From Acidobacteriota bacterium (GTDB lineage Bacteria; Acidobacteriota; Thermoanaerobaculia; Gp7-AA8), in the NCBI GenBank assembly GCA_016184115.1, contig JACPDH010000023.1, forward strand, positions 1 to 64,000: 64,000 nt of DNA, given 5' to 3'. Positions 14,206-21,385 of the stretch are shown one piece after another. Position 1 is the stretch's first letter; the number at the start of each line of letters is the position of its first letter. A model generated the notes under the pieces. It saw only the letters and a list, made by a program, of their open reading frames with translations, searched no databases and was not told the origin of the DNA. The translations under genes were made by a program, and so were the position numbers.

Positions 14206-14269
14206 CCTTCAGGCGCCCCCGCGCATACAATTCGGCTCGCTCGCGCTTCGCGCGCGGCACCCTATCCGC

Positions 14270-15517
14270 ATGAAGCGAATCATCCCCGTAAGTTCAGGCA
14301 AGGGCGGCGTCGGCAAAACGACGTTCGCCACGAATTTCGCCCTCTCATTGTCGCGCCACGGCAAGACCGTGCTCGTCGACCTGGACACCGGCACATCTGC
14401 GATCCGCCATGCGATCGACACTCCGGTGACGCGCGACCTCTACCACTTCTTCCGCAAGGGAGAGCCGCTCGCGAACTGCGTCACGCAGATCGACTCGAAG
14501 CTCGATCCCGACGGCTCCTACCGGAACTTCGGCTTCGTCGCGGGGCCGCTCCACTTGATCGACGAGATCACCAACTTCGGGCCGCAACACAAGTCGCATC
14601 TCATCGACGCGGTCAATGCACTCGACGCAAACTACGTCGTGCTCGACATGCGAGCCGGGCTCGACTCGACGGTGATCGACTTCCTCCCGGTCTCGAACTC
14701 GGGAATCCTCGTCTTCACGCCTCACCTCCCGAGCGCGACGCTCGCCGCGTCCGACATCGTCAAGGCGATCCTCTTCCGCAAGCTTCGTCTGATCTTCGGC
14801 AAGAACTCGCCGTTCTACGAGACCGTCGACGGCCGTCTCGACTTCTTCCGCCTCACGAACGAGCTGATCGATCGCGTCGAGGACGTCTACGACTCGTCGA
14901 TGAAGAACCTCGACGAGTTCGCCAACGACCTTCACTCGTCTCTCGGCGACCATCCGATCACGCGAACCGTCCAGGCGACGCTCGACAGCTTTCGCGTCCA
15001 CTTCGTTCTCAATCTCTTCCATGGCGTCGAGGAGTCGTACCAGACCGCGATCCGTCCCTTCATCGAGAACCTCACGGGGAACGTCTCGAGTCACTGCGGA
15101 ATCACGAATCTCGGGTGGGTCACGAAAAGCGATGCGATCCACAAGGCGAACTGCCGGAGCGTGCCGGCACTCCTCGCACTCGACGCGGAAAAGCGTAAGC
15201 CGAAGGATCGTATCGCTCAGGAGCTCGAAGACCTGCGGGTCACCGCGATCGGTCTCGAGCCGGCGAAGAAGAAGCCACACAGCACGACGCGCGAACGAAG
15301 CGGGGACCCGGGCGACCACCTCACCGCGCAGCTCGAGACGCTCTCGACGATGTTCGAACAGCGCCGCACCGACGACTACCGCGCGAACTTCGAGTACATC
15401 GCGCAGCGCGCGCTGTTCACGATGAAGACGCGCCGATCAAACGAGTTCGGCGACACGCGCATCTACCGTCCCGGCGAGATGCTCGACGCGATCTTCGCGA
15501 AATCGGCGCACCCCTGA
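14270..15517 (+). CDS. MinD/ParA-family P-loop ATPase
   Basis: Deviant Walker A ATPase: MKRIIPVSSGKGGVGKTTFA has the signature Lys11 and KGGVGKT (11-17), followed by LVDLDTGTSA and a Walker B-like YVVLDMRAG. At 415 residues it is longer than MinD (about 270). The extra C-terminal part (about 300-415) has conserved-looking segments but no recognised domain. Such proteins position cell structures (division site, flagella, pili, chromosome). No minC/minE, parB or flagellar partner is adjacent, so its cargo is unknown. The start at 14270 is the ATG directly before the core; the longer open frame lies in repeat sequence. Confidence 0.85.
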   Translation: MKRIIPVSSGKGGVGKTTFATNFALSLSRHGKTVLVDLDTGTSAIRHAIDTPVTRDLYHFFRKGEPLANCVTQIDSKLDPDGSYRNFGFVAGPLHLIDEITNFGPQHKSHLIDAVNALDANYVVLDMRAGLDSTVIDFLPVSNSGILVFTPHLPSATLAASDIVKAILFRKLRLIFGKNSPFYETVDGRLDFFRLTNELIDRVEDVYDSSMKNLDEFANDLHSSLGDHPITRTVQATLDSFRVHFVLNLFHGVEESYQTAIRPFIENLTGNVSSHCGITNLGWVTKSDAIHKANCRSVPALLALDAEKRKPKDRIAQELEDLRVTAIGLEPAKKKPHSTTRERSGDPGDHLTAQLETLSTMFEQRRTDDYRANFEYIAQRALFTMKTRRSNEFGDTRIYRPGEMLDAIFAKSAHP

Positions 15518-15524
15518 AGCAGCT

Positions 15525-15759
15525 CAAAGGTCATAGGTCAAAGGTCATATCAGGCAGCGAGTTGCGTGGGTTGCTTGTGTGACGCACATGCTCGAGCGCA
15601 GAGAACTCAGCGCTCGCGATCTCTCTCGAATATGAGCTCGCTGCGCACCGATTCGGCCTACAAGGTTCACTTCGATAGTCTCGACCACGAGGAACATCCG
15701 ATCACACCAGGCGAATCGCTGCCCGCTGCGACCTTTGACCTATGACCTTTGACCTAACC
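15525..15759. repeat. AGGTC-class heptad repeat, inverted arms 170 bp apart
   Basis: The left arm (15525-15556) carries AAAGGTC ATAGGTC AAAGGTC; the right arm (15727-15759) carries GACCTTTGACCTATGACCTTTGACC. The intervening sequence is unique and has no convincing gene. This is the clearest example of the two-armed AGGTC layout, between the ParA-like gene and the convergent GT2 gene. Confidence 0.92.
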
Positions 15760-16431
15760 AAAGATCCGCGTTCTCGCCACGACACCGGCGATGCGGAGCG
15801 TGTCGAGAAGCGGCCGGTAGTGGCTCGTCGAGATTCCATTCACGAAGCCGAGCTCGATCGGGATCGAGAGGATCCGCTTTCCAAGCCGGCCCGCGCGAAC
15901 GATGATCTCACTCTCCGCAGCGAACCCGTTCGCGTCCATCGATACTTCGCGGATCAGTGACGCGGAGTAGAGCCGAAAGCCGCTCTGCGAGTCGGTCACG
16001 CGCCGTCCTGCACACTTCGAGATTGCCCACGCCGAGAACATGTTTGCGTTGCGGCGCCGCGGCAACATCCCGCCGAAGAGGTGGCTCCGGTCTCCGATGA
16101 TCAGGTCGGCTCCCGTCTCGCGCCAGGCCCTGACGAACTTCGGGATCTCTGAGGGCAGATGCTGACCATCGGCATCGACTGTAATCACAGCATCGAAGCC
16201 GTTTTCCAGTGCGTGGCGAAAGCCTGTCCGGAGCGCGGCACCCTTGCCCAGATTGTGCGGGTGATGAAGCACGACGGCTCCCGCCGCCGCGGCCGCCTCC
16301 GGCGTTGCATCGGTCGAACCGTCATTGACGACGACGACGGCGGGCAATTGCGCGAGACTCGCTCGGACGACGTCTCCGACCGTGAAGCCCGCGTCGAGCG
16401 CCGGAATGACAACCATCACATTCTCAGCCAA
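15754..16431 (-). CDS. Family 2 glycosyltransferase (DPM1/polyprenyl-phosphate type)
   Basis: GT-A fold enzyme transferring a sugar from a nucleotide donor, probably to a lipid or polyprenyl acceptor. VVVVNDGSTDAT and the metal-binding TVDADGQH are visible; 225 residues with no C-terminal membrane anchor, like dolichol-phosphate-mannose synthase. It overlaps the upstream ketosynthase-like gene by 8 bp and is the last gene of the ACP-hotdog-KS-KS operon. A role glycosylating, or supplying sugar for, the acyl/polyene product is inferred from context only. Confidence 0.85.
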   Translation of the reverse strand: MAENVMVVIPALDAGFTVGDVVRASLAQLPAVVVVNDGSTDATPEAAAAAGAVVLHHPHNLGKGAALRTGFRHALENGFDAVITVDADGQHLPSEIPKFVRAWRETGADLIIGDRSHLFGGMLPRRRNANMFSAWAISKCAGRRVTDSQSGFRLYSASLIREVSMDANGFAAESEIIVRAGRLGKRILSIPIELGFVNGISTSHYRPLLDTLRIAGVVARTRIFG

Positions 16432-17653
16432 GGTCGCTCCTGCTGAGAACGGCAGAGACGATGCCGCCTCCCGCCGAGATCGAATTCACGAGAATGTGCT
16501 TCACTCCGGCGGGCGTCGAGGCGCGAGTGACCGGAAGCACCGCGCCCTCTTCCGCTCGCTCGAAGCCCACCGACGCGGGCAGTCGCTGATCCCGCAGCGC
16601 CACCGCCGCCGATGCGAGCTGGATTCCGCCGCCGGCAGCATACTCGCCGAACATGCCTTTCGTGGCGACGACGGGCGGGCAGTTGTCTCCGAAAAGCTCG
16701 CGCAGCGCCCGCGCCTCGAGGCGGTCTCCGTTCACGCTCCCGTTGGCGGAGGCCCAGACCGCGTCGACATCGTCTGGCGCGATGCCCGCATCGTCGAGCG
16801 ACGCACGCACGGCGCGAACAACAGCACCGGAATCGGTGCCCCAATCGGAGATCGTCGCCGTCGCGTCCTTCGCGATACCGAAACCCGACACGAGAGCCCA
16901 CGGATCTCCCCGAAGCGCGCCGGGTCGTTCGAGGACGAGCGCCGCGGAGCCTTCGCCTACGAGCGTGCCATTGCGCCGCGCATCGAACGGACGCCCCACC
17001 TCGTCCTCCCCGTTGCGTGCGTGAGCCAAGGCACCGATCCGGTCGAGCACGGAGTAGAGCAGCTCATTCATCTCGTCGATGCCGCCGCAGATTGCTGCAC
17101 TCGCGGTTCCTTTCAACATCTGTCCACAGGCGAACATCAGCGCAGTCATCGCGGAGCTCTCGCGCTGCGTGAAGGTGACATTGAAGCCTTCGAAGCCATG
17201 TTCGATGGCGACGTGGCTTCCGGGGGCGTTTGCCACCGACTCCGCGAACAGCTGCGGCGGCGCGAGCGCGGCCCCTTTCTCCATGTACTCGCGAAGGTAT
17301 TCGATCGAGGTCTGCACGGGACCAAACGCCGTGCCGATCGCGACGCCGACCTCGGGGCGCGCAAACCCCGCCCCTTCGAGCCTCGCATCGGCGATGGCCA
17401 TCGTCGCCGCCGCGAGCCCCATTCGCGAAAGGTTGTTCATCCGGCGAAGCTTCATCATCGGGATGAAGTCCTTCGCCTTGAAATCGCGGAGGAGTGCAGC
17501 GCGGTGCGATCGCATCGCCGAGGTGTCGAAACGGTCGATCTCCACCGCGCAGCTGACGCCTGCGTAGAGCGTGGCGCGGAACGCGTCGACACCGATGGCG
17601 CCCGGCGCGACGACGCCGATTCCGGTAACGGCAATGCGTGAGGAGGTCGTCAT
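16424..17653 (-). CDS. Ketosynthase-like protein lacking catalytic residues (chain-length-factor type)
   Basis: Thiolase-fold beta-ketoacyl synthase relative, 409 residues. All three catalytic positions are changed. Aligning to the neighbouring active KS, the Cys position falls at Glu165 in FTQRESSAM, the NAHGTGT His is Asn304 in ASANGS, and the FGHT His is Glu337 in KGMFGEY. In type II polyketide and aryl-polyene systems such a KS-beta (chain-length factor) pairs with an active KS and sets chain length. It lies 137 bp downstream of the active KS and overlaps the GT2 gene. Calling it a chain-length factor is inference from residue loss plus pairing. Confidence 0.85.
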   Translation of the reverse strand: MTTSSRIAVTGIGVVAPGAIGVDAFRATLYAGVSCAVEIDRFDTSAMRSHRAALLRDFKAKDFIPMMKLRRMNNLSRMGLAAATMAIADARLEGAGFARPEVGVAIGTAFGPVQTSIEYLREYMEKGAALAPPQLFAESVANAPGSHVAIEHGFEGFNVTFTQRESSAMTALMFACGQMLKGTASAAICGGIDEMNELLYSVLDRIGALAHARNGEDEVGRPFDARRNGTLVGEGSAALVLERPGALRGDPWALVSGFGIAKDATATISDWGTDSGAVVRAVRASLDDAGIAPDDVDAVWASANGSVNGDRLEARALRELFGDNCPPVVATKGMFGEYAAGGGIQLASAAVALRDQRLPASVGFERAEEGAVLPVTRASTPAGVKHILVNSISAGGGIVSAVLSRSDLG

Positions 17654-17790
17654 GGGAAGCGTACGGAGCTACCGCAGGAGCACTGGGGCACCGCGGGGCG
17701 GCGACACTCTAGCAGAGCAGCTTCAAAAGCGGTATTGCCGCGAGTACCTGTAACGAGTATTCGAGCTCTGCCGCAGCGAAGCCCGCACCG

Positions 17791-19014
17791 TCACACCGCG
17801 CGGAAGAGGAGCGACACGTTGCTGCCGCCAAACCCGAACGTGTTCGACAGAACCCGCTCCATCGCCAACGGGCGCGGCGTACTCGGGATGTAGTCGAGCG
17901 TGCAGTCGCCGGCAGGCGACTCGAGACGCAGGGTGGGTGGAGCGACCTGGTGTCGCAACGCGAGCACGGCAATCACCGCTTCGAGCCCCCCGGCCGCACC
18001 GAGCGTGTGACCGAAGTACGACTTCGTCGAAGAGACCGGGACGTCGTTGCCGACTGCGCCGATGATCGCCCGCGTCTCCGCGGAGTCATTGAGCAACGTG
18101 CCGGTTCCGTGTGCATTGACGTAGTCGATGGGCATCCCGTCGGCACCTCCGTCGCCGATCGCGCCGAGCATCGCGGCGCGCGCCCCTCTCCCGTCCTCTG
18201 CCGGCGCGGTCGGATGACTCGCGTCGCACGATGCGCCGTAGCCGCAGAGCTCGGCCAGGATCTCCGCGCCGCGCGCGACGGCATCGTCCCATCGCTCGAT
18301 CATCAGGTAGGCCGCACCTTCTCCAAGCGTGATCCCCTGGCGGGCGACGTCGAAGGGGCGACACGGCTTCGGGTCGACCGCCTGGAGGACATTGAAGCCG
18401 CTGTACGTTAGGCGGCAGAGCGCGTCGCTTCCGCCCGCGATCGCGGCCGCTGCCTGTCCCGAACGGATCAGATCGGCGGCAAAGCCGATCGCCGCTCCGC
18501 CGGAAGCGCACGCGGTCGCGTTCGAGAAGACGCCGCCCCCGAGGCCGAGATGGCGCGCGACTGAGTCGGACGGCGCTGAGGTCGGCTGCTGCAGCACGGT
18601 CGACGCCGCGGCGCGACGCGCACCGAAACGCTCGCGTCGCATGAAGAACTCTTCTCCTTCGAGAAGGCCGCCGGTCGACGTCCCGCTCGAAACAGCAACG
18701 CGCTCCGGCGCGACGGGGCGGCCTTTCGCATTCGCCCGCGACCAGCATTCGGCGGCGGCGACGATTGCGAAGAGGTCGGTCCGCGAGAGGCGCTTCGCCT
18801 CGCTGCGCGAAAATCCGGCCGGCACGAAGCGCTCGAGCTCCGCCTGCGCAGCGATGTCGGTCGGGAAGCTCTCGCCGGGAAACATGTCGAGCTTCGCGAT
18901 ACCGTCACGCGACGCAATGATCGCCGCCCAAACCTCTTCCTGGTTCTTTCCGATCGCGCACCGGATCCCGAGTCCGGTCACGGCGAGCCTCGTGCTTCTG
19001 TCCGCGATTCTCAT
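17791..19014 (-). CDS. Beta-ketoacyl synthase (active, FabF/KS-alpha type)
   Basis: Condensing enzyme joining an acyl chain to malonyl-ACP. The full triad is present: Cys169 in NATACASGG, His302 in NAHGTGT, His336 in KSYFGHTLGAAG. 407 residues from the ATG at 19014; the longer open frame upstream lacks homology and would cover the hotdog gene. The start overlaps the hotdog gene stop by 4 bp (19011-19014), so the two are translationally coupled. With the catalytically dead partner downstream and an ACP upstream it looks like KS-alpha of a small type II polyketide/aryl-polyene-like system rather than housekeeping FabF. Confidence 0.93.
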   Translation of the reverse strand: MRIADRSTRLAVTGLGIRCAIGKNQEEVWAAIIASRDGIAKLDMFPGESFPTDIAAQAELERFVPAGFSRSEAKRLSRTDLFAIVAAAECWSRANAKGRPVAPERVAVSSGTSTGGLLEGEEFFMRRERFGARRAAASTVLQQPTSAPSDSVARHLGLGGGVFSNATACASGGAAIGFAADLIRSGQAAAAIAGGSDALCRLTYSGFNVLQAVDPKPCRPFDVARQGITLGEGAAYLMIERWDDAVARGAEILAELCGYGASCDASHPTAPAEDGRGARAAMLGAIGDGGADGMPIDYVNAHGTGTLLNDSAETRAIIGAVGNDVPVSSTKSYFGHTLGAAGGLEAVIAVLALRHQVAPPTLRLESPAGDCTLDYIPSTPRPLAMERVLSNTFGFGGSNVSLLFRAV

Positions 19015-19424
19015 CGGCCCTCGTTCTCCTCCGGTGCCTCGTCCTGCGCGGCGAGATAAAAGCGCGCTCGAGCGAATTCGGTCACGCCGTCGAAGGCGAC
19101 GCCGTCGAAACGATGAATCCTCCCGAACGACTTCACGAGTCGCACCTCGAGGCGGAACGACTCGCCGCCGCATAACGCACGATCGATCCGCGCCTCGTCG
19201 ATCGCCGAAAGAAAGCCAGGCTCCGAGGAACGGCCGAAAGCCAGCACCCCGGCCGTCTGCGCCATCGCCTCGATCACGAATATCTCGATCGGAATCCCGC
19301 GACCGAGCGCGTCGGCGGCCGATTGGTGGAACACCCCGCGCGCCCGCTCTTCATCGACGACTTCGATCCGCGACGTCGCGCGGAAGGGAATCTGATGCGG
19401 CAGTCCCGCGAGAGGCGACCTCAC
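19011..19424 (-). CDS. Hotdog-fold dehydratase-like protein (FabZ/ApeI-like)
   Basis: 137-residue single hotdog domain resembling 3-hydroxyacyl-ACP dehydratases. LPHQIPF places a His10 where FabZ has its catalytic His, and FVIEAMAQTAG places Glu52 where FabZ has its acidic partner in VEAMAQ. The FabZ glycine-rich PGHFPG segment is absent, so catalytic competence is uncertain. It overlaps the ACP gene by 4 bp (19421-19424) and the active KS by 4 bp. In the aryl-polyene pathway such proteins dehydrate ACP-bound intermediates; that role here is inference. Confidence 0.8.
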   Translation of the reverse strand: MRSPLAGLPHQIPFRATSRIEVVDEERARGVFHQSAADALGRGIPIEIFVIEAMAQTAGVLAFGRSSEPGFLSAIDEARIDRALCGGESFRLEVRLVKSFGRIHRFDGVAFDGVTEFARARFYLAAQDEAPEENEGR

Positions 19425-19699
19425 GCGTCAGCCCTGACTGCCGTCCTCTCCTGAACGAACTTCGCGAGACTGCCGATCGATCGGAAGTGCTCACGCGCCG
19501 ACGACTCGTTCTTGATCTTCAGGCCGAACTCGCTCTCGAGCATCACGACGATCTCGAGCGCGTCGATCGAGTCGAGCCCTAGGCCGCCCTCGAACAGAGG
19601 GTCGTCGTCCCCAATGTCGTCGGGAGTCATGTCTTCGAACTTCAGCCGCTCGATGAGCAGCTGCTTGAGTCGATGTTTCAGGCTGTCGAGATCCGGCAA
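19421..19699 (-). CDS. Acyl carrier protein
   Basis: 92-residue carrier protein with the phosphopantetheine site Ser44 in GLDSIDALE; acidic helix II and FGLKIKNE follow as in ACPs. The start is a TTG at 19699 with GGAGG 8 nt upstream; the frame extending to 19828 overlaps the divergent ligase start and is unlikely. As first gene of the leftward operon it probably carries the growing chain for the KS pair. It is distinct from a housekeeping acpP, which would normally lie with fabF/fabG. Confidence 0.9.
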   Translation of the reverse strand: MPDLDSLKHRLKQLLIERLKFEDMTPDDIGDDDPLFEGGLGLDSIDALEIVVMLESEFGLKIKNESSAREHFRSIGSLAKFVQERTAVRADA

Positions 19700-19774
19700 G
19701 ACTTCCCTCCGATGAGTGGCTCCGCGCACCCGAAGGAATCTGAAGTGGGGGCGCTGTCGGATTCTATACCGAGC

Positions 19775-19803
19775 TTGACGCTCGAAAAATCCTGCCGATA
19801 TCC
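19775..19803 (+). promoter_or_regulatory. Candidate promoter of the acyl-AMP ligase gene
   Basis: TTGACG at 19775-19780 is followed 16-17 bp later by GATATCC (19797-19803), about 20 bp before the ligase ATG. The -35 is good and the -10 is weak. A TATAGA-like element on the opposite strand (19763-19768) could serve the divergent ACP operon. Confidence 0.4.
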
Positions 19804-19821
19804 TTCGCCGCTGACCGTCCG

Positions 19822-21228
19822 ATGCCATCCACCACTCCCGCAGCCGCTCCGATCACGACGATTGCCGAGTCGTTCTCCCGCCTCGTCGCGCTCGATCCCG
19901 CGGCAGCCGCGGTCATCGAGGGCGAGAGCGGCGCGGTGACCTCGCGCGCCGAGCTCTCGGCACGCGGCGACGAGATCGCCTCGCGCCTCCGTGCATCGGG
20001 GGTCGAGAACGGCCAGCTCGTCGCAATCCAGATCCCGAACTCGGTCGATTTCCTCGCGGCTGTCGTCGCGGCACTCCGCCTTGGCGCGACGGTGGTCCCC
20101 GTCGACCGTGACACGCGTGCCGGCGAGCTCGCGACGATCGTCGCGCACCTAGGGGCCCGCGCCATCGTCTCCCGTGACACCGGCGGCGCGGTGTCGGTCG
20201 CCCGCCTCGACGGCGCGACTCGACTCGAGCTCGCCGAGCCCATTCCGCTCATCAAGTTGACCTCCGGATCGACCGGCCATCCGAAGGGAATCATCACGAG
20301 CGAGCGCAATCTCCTCGCTGACTGCCGCAACATCTGCTCGACGATGGAAATCGCGCCCACCGACCTGAATCTTGGCGCGATCCCTTTCTCGCACTCCTAC
20401 GGCTTCTCGAATCTCGTCACGCCGCTCCTCGTGCAGGGAACGCCCGTCGTCGCCACGAACCTTTACCTCCCCCTCTCGATCCTCGAGCTCGCGAACAGAT
20501 ACCGCTGCACGGTGATCCCGGGGATTCCGATGATGTTCGACCATCTTGCGCAGCTCGCGGCCGACGACGGCCGCTTCAATTCCGCGCGGACGCTGATCTC
20601 CGCCGGAGCTCCCCTCCGCGCAAACGTGTCGCGCGGCTTCCGCGAGCGCTTCGGCATCGCGATCCACTCGTTCTACGGCTGCAGCGAGTGCGGCGGGATC
20701 TCATACGACCGCGCCGGCGCGTCGGTCGAGCGCGGCACCGTCGGCGGGGCGATGGACGGAGTCGCGCTGACGATGGAGCACGACGGCCGCCTCATCATCG
20801 AGAGCGACGCCGTCGCACTCGGATACTTCCTCGGTGGCGACGATGAACACGCTCGCTTCGCCGCGCGCCGCTACCGCTCGGACGATCTCGCCCGATGGAC
20901 CGACGCCGGCGAGATCGAGCTGACCGGGCGCGCCGGCGATCTCATCAACACCGCGGGGAAGAAAGTGAACCCGCGTGAGATCGAAGCGGTGATCCTCGAA
21001 CACCCTGGCGTCCGCGAGGCAAAGGTCTGGGGTGAAGCAGCAGGTGCACGCGGCGAAGTCGTCGCCGCGGCCATCGTGGCGTCACCCGATGTCACCGTTG
21101 CCACGATTCGCGAACACTGCGCGGCCCGGCTCTCGTCGTGGAAGGTCCCCAGGATCGTCAAGCTCCTCGAGAAGCTGCCGCTCGACGAGCGGGGAAAGCT
21201 GAAGCGGGACGAGCTGCGTCGCGCGTGA
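19822..21228 (+). CDS. Acyl/aryl-AMP ligase (ANL superfamily)
   Basis: Adenylate-forming enzyme activating a carboxylic acid for transfer to CoA or an ACP. Core motifs: LTSGSTGHPKGI (A3, phosphate loop), YGCSECGGIS (A5), YRSDDLARW (A7), GRAGDLINTAGKKVNP (A8, hinge) and catalytic Lys in RGKLKRDEL (A10). 468 residues, slightly short because the region between A3 and the N-terminus is compact. It diverges from the ACP-hotdog-KS operon by 122 bp, so it plausibly loads the starter acid on that ACP. The substrate cannot be read from sequence. Confidence 0.92.
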   Translation: MPSTTPAAAPITTIAESFSRLVALDPAAAAVIEGESGAVTSRAELSARGDEIASRLRASGVENGQLVAIQIPNSVDFLAAVVAALRLGATVVPVDRDTRAGELATIVAHLGARAIVSRDTGGAVSVARLDGATRLELAEPIPLIKLTSGSTGHPKGIITSERNLLADCRNICSTMEIAPTDLNLGAIPFSHSYGFSNLVTPLLVQGTPVVATNLYLPLSILELANRYRCTVIPGIPMMFDHLAQLAADDGRFNSARTLISAGAPLRANVSRGFRERFGIAIHSFYGCSECGGISYDRAGASVERGTVGGAMDGVALTMEHDGRLIIESDAVALGYFLGGDDEHARFAARRYRSDDLARWTDAGEIELTGRAGDLINTAGKKVNPREIEAVILEHPGVREAKVWGEAAGARGEVVAAAIVASPDVTVATIREHCAARLSSWKVPRIVKLLEKLPLDERGKLKRDELRRA

Positions 21229-21385
21229 CGCGGAAACGCGGATTGCGTAACGCGGAACGCGAAATGCGAAACGCGAAATGCGAAATGCGAAACGCAAAGT
21301 GTGGAATGCGAAACGCGAAATGCGGATTGCGCGTCCCGCATCGAGGCGTTTCACATCCGGCGTTTCGCGTTCCGCATTTCAGCGT
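21229..21385. repeat. GCG-class heptad repeat (AAATGCG units), inverted
   Basis: About 16 units of 7 bp related to AAATGCG/GAACGCG/GATTGCG run from 21235 to 21335, then inverted units (GGCGTTTCGCGTTCCGCATTTC) to about 21380. It fills the whole gap between the ligase and the convergent yraN gene and reaches the yraN stop codon. Confidence 0.92.

Follow-up and report, generated by a model that had tools for sequence, protein, structure and literature searches.

Aryl-polyene (APE) and xanthomonadin-type pathways are the closest described counterparts of the system reported here. In APE biosynthesis, ApeH adenylates 4-hydroxybenzoate and loads it onto an acyl carrier protein (ACP), ApeO and ApeC elongate the chain, and the acyltransferases ApeD and ApeJ have been proposed to anchor the product (PMC8253772); APE chain-length factors (CLFs) are half-size proteins with a single domain (PMC8358021). 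In Lysobacter, Xanthomonas and others, the pair of ketosynthase (KS) and CLF is regularly accompanied by a dolichyl-phosphate-mannose (DPM)-synthase-like gene, a hallmark of xanthomonadin-type clusters, and often by a halogenase, and the Gln of the CLF is essential in Lysobacter ORF16 (PMC3691225). The arcuflavin genes of Azoarcus are divided between two separate loci, which hold a glycosyltransferase, acyltransferase, halogenase, methyltransferase, polysaccharide deacetylase, exporter, LolA, dehydratases, AMP ligase, ACP, KS, half KS, reductase and chorismatase (PMC3949708). We found nothing direct in the literature on a Luteitalea pigment or on aryl polyenes in Thermoanaerobaculia. Here we describe a six-gene locus at positions 15754-21228 of a 64,000-nucleotide stretch (the window; contig JACPDH010000023.1, assembly GCA_016184115.1) from an Acidobacteriota bacterium of the Thermoanaerobaculia, lineage Gp7-AA8.

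The locus encodes an ACP, a hotdog protein, an active ketosynthase (KSα), a catalytically dead partner (KSβ), a family 2 glycosyltransferase (GT2) and a divergently transcribed acyl/aryl ligase. All six genes named in the original prediction were present as judged by Pfam and NCBIfam matches (KS, PP-binding, GT2 and AMP-binding families), the hotdog protein through a FabZ-like model, and a type II system built on KSα/KSβ, with ACP, hotdog protein, ligase and GT2 of its own, was supported as proposed. We consider it likely that these genes form the elongation core of a pathway of the xanthomonadin/APE type, leading to a xanthomonadin-like aryl-polyene pigment, with its remaining genes dispersed in this order. 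This reading draws on the genes present, their phylogeny, the state of the active sites, conservation and synteny, the fuller clusters of relatives, and a second locus and a chorismatase in the same genome. APE-type biosynthesis, so far described mostly in Proteobacteria and Bacteroidetes, appears to extend to Acidobacteriota.

The active sites and phylogeny of the two ketosynthases were compared with those of known enzymes. KSα retains an intact Cys-His-His triad (motifs TACAS, AHGT and K..GHTLGA). The corresponding KSβ motifs are QRESS, SAN and K..GEY, so that Cys is replaced by Glu, the first His by Ser or Ala and the second His by Glu, while Lys is retained, and this dead-site pattern is nearly invariant across relatives. 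KSβ has 409 aa with both KS domains present, and its predicted model shows a two-domain ketosynthase fold at a predicted local distance difference test score (pLDDT) of 86. KSα matched both ApeR and ApeO in a comparison with the E. coli CFT073 aryl-polyene cluster. In the KS tree it formed one clade with E. coli ApeO (support 100/99), apart from FabF, FabB, ApeR and actinobacterial KSα; KSβ formed its own clade (100/100), and the FabF clade (100/100) took in the genome's own FabF, located elsewhere (G000:C55). The possibility that both ketosynthases group with housekeeping FabF/FabB was thereby ruled out, as was an actinobacterial aromatic type II polyketide synthase (PKS), since KSα and KSβ both lie outside the actinobacterial clades. 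KSα and KSβ each divided into the same three groups: the window's order (order A), class B and class C. Comparison of KSβ with the 240-aa ApeC gave no significant match, relatedness being undetectable beyond 25 columns, and ApeC homology was ruled out on this sequence comparison.

The other four proteins were likewise compared with APE proteins. The ACP is 43.5% identical to ApeE (E 1.6e-22), the ligase carries the motifs TSGSTGHPK and YGCSE and matches ApeH (E 1.6e-8), and GT2 matches the glycosyltransferase portion of ApeJ (E 1.5e-19). GT2 also matches the polyprenyl-phospho-GalNAc synthase family (NF058614, E 1.2e-30), and this DPM-synthase-like protein is encoded next to the KSα/KSβ pair. 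The hotdog protein is too diverged for Pfam, and its NCBIfam matches reach FabZ level alone, below cut-off (E 1.7e-9). Its AlphaFold model (pLDDT 81) matches FabZ structures (E 1.9e-9); ApeP is a weak match (E 0.003), and the FabZ-like fold has lost the catalytic His segment.

With the xanthomonadin and arcuflavin systems of Lysobacter, Xanthomonas and Azoarcus, the locus shares a KS and CLF-like partner beside a DPM-synthase-like glycosyltransferase, an ACP and an AMP ligase, and further parts (acyltransferase, polysaccharide deacetylase, methyltransferase, halogenase and chorismatase) are matched by dispersed genes or by clusters of relatives. Here, however, the pathway is spread among several loci and is universal within its order. 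With the APE systems of E. coli and Xenorhabdus it shares an ApeO-clade KS, ApeE-type ACP, ApeJ-type GT2, ApeH-type ligase and, as a weak match, an ApeP-like hotdog protein, whereas counterparts of ApeR, ApeQ, ApeM, ApeL and ApeI are not at this locus. Actinobacterial type II aromatic PKSs likewise combine a KSα adjoining a full-length, catalytically dead KSβ with an ACP, but no cyclase or aromatase was found here. The differences from known aryl-polyene systems are real: a full-length two-domain CLF with Glu, a hotdog protein without His, no cluster-type exporter, and a vertical, dispersed layout. The main unusual trait is the full-length chain-length-factor partner in place of a half-size protein. 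The original prediction had regarded the gene combination as undescribed; this did not hold, as aryl-polyene and xanthomonadin clusters contain these parts (PMC3949708, PMC3691225).

We next consider conservation in the window's order. A KSβ orthologue (54-78% identity) with a neighbouring KSα was present in 19/19 genomes, and the gene order ligase (divergent), ACP, hotdog, KSα, KSβ, GT2 was kept in all relatives whose contig was long enough. The neighbourhood consists of conserved housekeeping genes, a pgsA-like and a CRP-like gene by NCBIfam, together with trigger factor, ClpP, ClpX and Lon on inspection of the sequences. The presence in every genome and the housekeeping synteny indicate that the locus was inherited vertically in the order and is therefore not a sporadic cluster; the APE-type pathway in Acidobacteriota looks to be fixed in a single order. 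About ten relatives carry an extra flavin adenine dinucleotide (FAD)-dependent gene between ligase and ACP; those of them that were read over their whole length resemble CmlS and retain the WxWxIP motif of halogenases. An Acidobacteria gp7 metagenome-assembled genome (L062) has ligase, ACP, KSα and KSβ in this order, and the other contig-scan matches were mostly ordinary FabF genes.

Relatives of KSβ with 36-38% identity sit in fuller clusters in two further classes of this phylum. One (L181) holds ligase, KSα, KSβ, GT2, an MMPL exporter, methyltransferases, an ApeP-like hotdog protein, a LipA-type acyltransferase (LPLAT) and a halogenase-like gene; another (L185) holds ligase, ACP, KSα, KSβ, GT2, a ketoreductase (KR), MMPL, two hotdog proteins (one ApeI-like), a polysaccharide deacetylase and a methyltransferase. 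A third, of about 28 kb (L176/L254, G140), comprises KSα, ACP, KR, KSβ, MMPL, GT2, acyltransferase, methyltransferase, chorismatase, hotdog and ligase. Across L170-L177 and L254 these genes form the blocks KSβ/KR/ACP..KSα, MMPL/GT2/LPLAT and chorismatase/hotdog/ligase, and FkbO/Hyg5-family chorismatases also occur in L061 and L184. In content these clusters agree with xanthomonadin-type clusters described in the literature, such as the arcuflavin loci. Homologous loci with fuller aryl-polyene sets therefore exist, a finding that the original prediction had itself named as contrary to its view.

Candidates for the missing parts were found elsewhere in the same genome. Statements of absence here are the outcome of targeted searches. 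No KR, methyltransferase, acyltransferase, exporter or LolA was found at this locus; the earlier claim that the first four are lacking holds for the locus itself, but acyltransferase and methyltransferase candidates lie on another contig (G000:C39). Each examined genome of the order has two strong PF03279 proteins of LpxL/M type and a third, weak copy (G013 has one more strong copy; G004 is cut by a contig end). It is the weak copy that the cluster acyltransferase matches best (31-36%); in a tree this copy joins the acyltransferases of the class-B clusters (98/96) and stays apart from the lipid A enzymes (100/100). The LPLAT tree mirrors the KSβ tree, with order A sister to class B. In the window genome, contig C39 holds this cluster-type LPLAT with a polysaccharide deacetylase and a methyltransferase, the latter two homologous to those of L185. 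The region (L217:3584-6700, with L218-L224) is a second conserved locus of the order, with a PIG-L deacetylase, glycosyltransferases, the LipA-type acyltransferase, a membrane protein of about 200 aa, the polysaccharide deacetylase and the methyltransferase, and is probably the lipid-attachment half of the pathway. An FkbO/Hyg5-family chorismatase is encoded at L246:9164-10129 (G000:C126; 38%, E 1.6e-55, PF21168) and is present in most relatives of the order, usually alone and away from any biosynthetic cluster. The nearest copy of the CmlS-like FAD gene in the window genome is on contig C104 beside an SDR (40%, Trp_halogenase domain, WFWLIP). Separately, a Trp_halogenase-like FAD protein of about 515 aa with the motif WIWVIP (L045:795-2336; L149:4636-6201, G000:C115) adjoins the ligase in several relatives and is on another contig in the window genome.

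From these data we infer substrate, polyene product, order of steps and attachment as follows. The chorismatase on C126, in a XanB2-type role, would supply a hydroxybenzoate, which the ligase would activate and load onto the ApeE-like ACP; the starter acid is probably aromatic. KSα would elongate it by malonyl units to a length determined by the full-length KSβ, and a FabG-type KR and the hotdog protein, probably with FabZ, would reduce and dehydrate each unit to give a conjugated polyene. GT2 and the LipA-type acyltransferase of C39 may then attach the chain to a cell-envelope (glyco)lipid, with tailoring by methyltransferase, deacetylase and halogenase-like enzymes. A lipid-anchored polyene on an activated, probably aromatic, starter would thus take the place of the small glycosylated acyl product first suggested.

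Several observations weigh against assigning the locus to an aryl-polyene pathway. ApeO is a long branch in the KS tree, and the alignment of relatives confirms that the FabZ His segment is missing from the hotdog protein. In comparison with xanthomonadin and arcuflavin systems, the CLF is full length with Glu, whereas theirs is half length with Gln; exporter, LolA and KR are absent at this locus, although L185 has KR and MMPL and L181 has MMPL. No dedicated cluster-type exporter was found: the one full-length MMPL of the order is a paralogue in a housekeeping setting, and we rejected it as the pathway exporter because of its valS-birA-coaX-rpiA context and because its G134 counterpart is a second MMPL outside the cluster. 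Three members of the family (G008, G015 and G016) yielded no chorismatase. The co-occurrence of chorismatase and KSβ, by contrast, speaks for the assignment: in a 396-genome sample of the phylum, a chorismatase match at E<1e-30 occurred in 16/20 KSβ-positive and 15/376 other genomes (Fisher p 1e-16), a figure that ignores shared ancestry and for which KSβ-negative genomes were scanned with strict cut-offs.

The strongest alternative is a diverged, non-aryl use. In that case the substrate of the ligase would be a fatty acid or some other acid, and KSα/KSβ would build a specialised acyl chain, polyunsaturated or beta-modified, destined for a core glycolipid of the envelope in this order. The universal presence of the locus in the order, its housekeeping synteny beside the pgsA-like gene, the His-less hotdog protein and the lack of chorismatase in some members are consistent with it, as is the finding that, among solved sequences, KSβ comes closest to chain C of PDB 9s5h/9s5i (E 3.5e-51), which belongs to a KSα/KSβ-like pair. 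That pair has one active and one dead chain and also matches KSα strongly, but identity is about 30% and its placement beside KSβ in the tree is weak (59). KSα nests with ApeO, however, most members of the order do have a chorismatase, and in relatives chorismatase and halogenase-like genes adjoin the homologous genes; we regard a non-aryl use as unlikely. Far less credible is that the locus is left over from a full aryl-polyene cluster in decay and no longer yields the product: KR and exporter are absent and the hotdog protein has diverged, yet all six genes are intact and kept in 18-19 genomes, catalytic residues are invariant in KSα and ACP, and order and synteny are conserved. A novel minimal type II polyketide pathway to a small glycosylated acyl product, as originally predicted, fits the gene content of the window by itself but is highly improbable given the same parts in fuller homologous clusters and published xanthomonadin-type clusters, and a GT2 of polyprenyl-phosphate type.

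Within the preferred assignment to an aryl-polyene pathway, a more specific proposal is tentative, and we lean slightly against it: that the locus represents a distinct branch whose CLF, a full-length Cys-to-Glu ketosynthase, is the ancestral state of the half-size ApeC/ORF16 CLFs, and that this branch is now a fixed, dispersed core pathway of the whole order. If so, such a layout would have caused it to be missed by cluster-based genome mining, as genes spread in this way would be overlooked by tools that depend on clustering. An ApeO-type system with a full-length CLF could serve to probe the origin of half-size APE CLFs and the role of Glu/Gln at the dead active site.

The coordinates of the locus features are collected in Table 1.

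Table 1. Features of the six-gene locus, in window positions.
Feature	Position	Strand	Evidence
AMP-forming acyl/aryl ligase, divergent, ApeH/ArcT-like role, 468 aa	19822..21228	+	PF00501 E 1.7e-51, PF13193
Intergenic region of 122 bp between the divergent ligase gene and the ACP operon, likely shared promoter region	19700..19821	.	position only
Acyl carrier protein, dedicated, ApeE type (GLGLDSIDALEI)	19421..19699	-	PF00550 E 5.7e-11; PRK09184 68.6 vs 70 bits
Hotdog protein, FabZ/ApeP-like, without FabZ catalytic His segment	19011..19424	-	FabZ NF000582 E 1.7e-9
KSα, active ketosynthase, ApeO clade	17791..19014	-	catalytic motifs and KS tree
KSβ, full-length chain-length-factor-like partner, Cys to Glu	16424..17653	-	motifs and predicted two-domain fold
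GT2, dolichyl/polyprenyl-phosphate sugar synthase type, ApeJ N-terminal-like	15754..16431	-	PF00535 E 4.2e-23; NF058614

The genes had been described as overlapping, and this applies to three junctions (ACP/hotdog 4 bp, hotdog/KSα 4 bp, KSβ/GT2 8 bp); the KSα/KSβ junction, with an interval of 137 bp, is the only one of the four without overlap. The ACP gene starts with TTG behind a Shine-Dalgarno sequence GGAGGG, and the intergenic region contains one sigma-70-like match (19775-19804), which is not above chance. A tandem array of ACGCGAA type with 7/14/21-bp periods lies behind the ligase (window 21228-21331), and a 14-bp repeat (GACCTTTGACCTAT) lies behind GT2 (window 15730-15756). A MinD/ParA-like ATPase that resembles MinD models weakly (window 14267-15517) is conserved beside the locus in many relatives. 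Elsewhere in the genome, an active KS outside the FabF clade, an S-adenosylmethionine-dependent methyltransferase and an FAD-dependent oxidoreductase are tightly ordered (L146:8696-11905; G000:C90:41.7-44.9 kb), and this three-gene set is possibly a separate small polyketide pathway.

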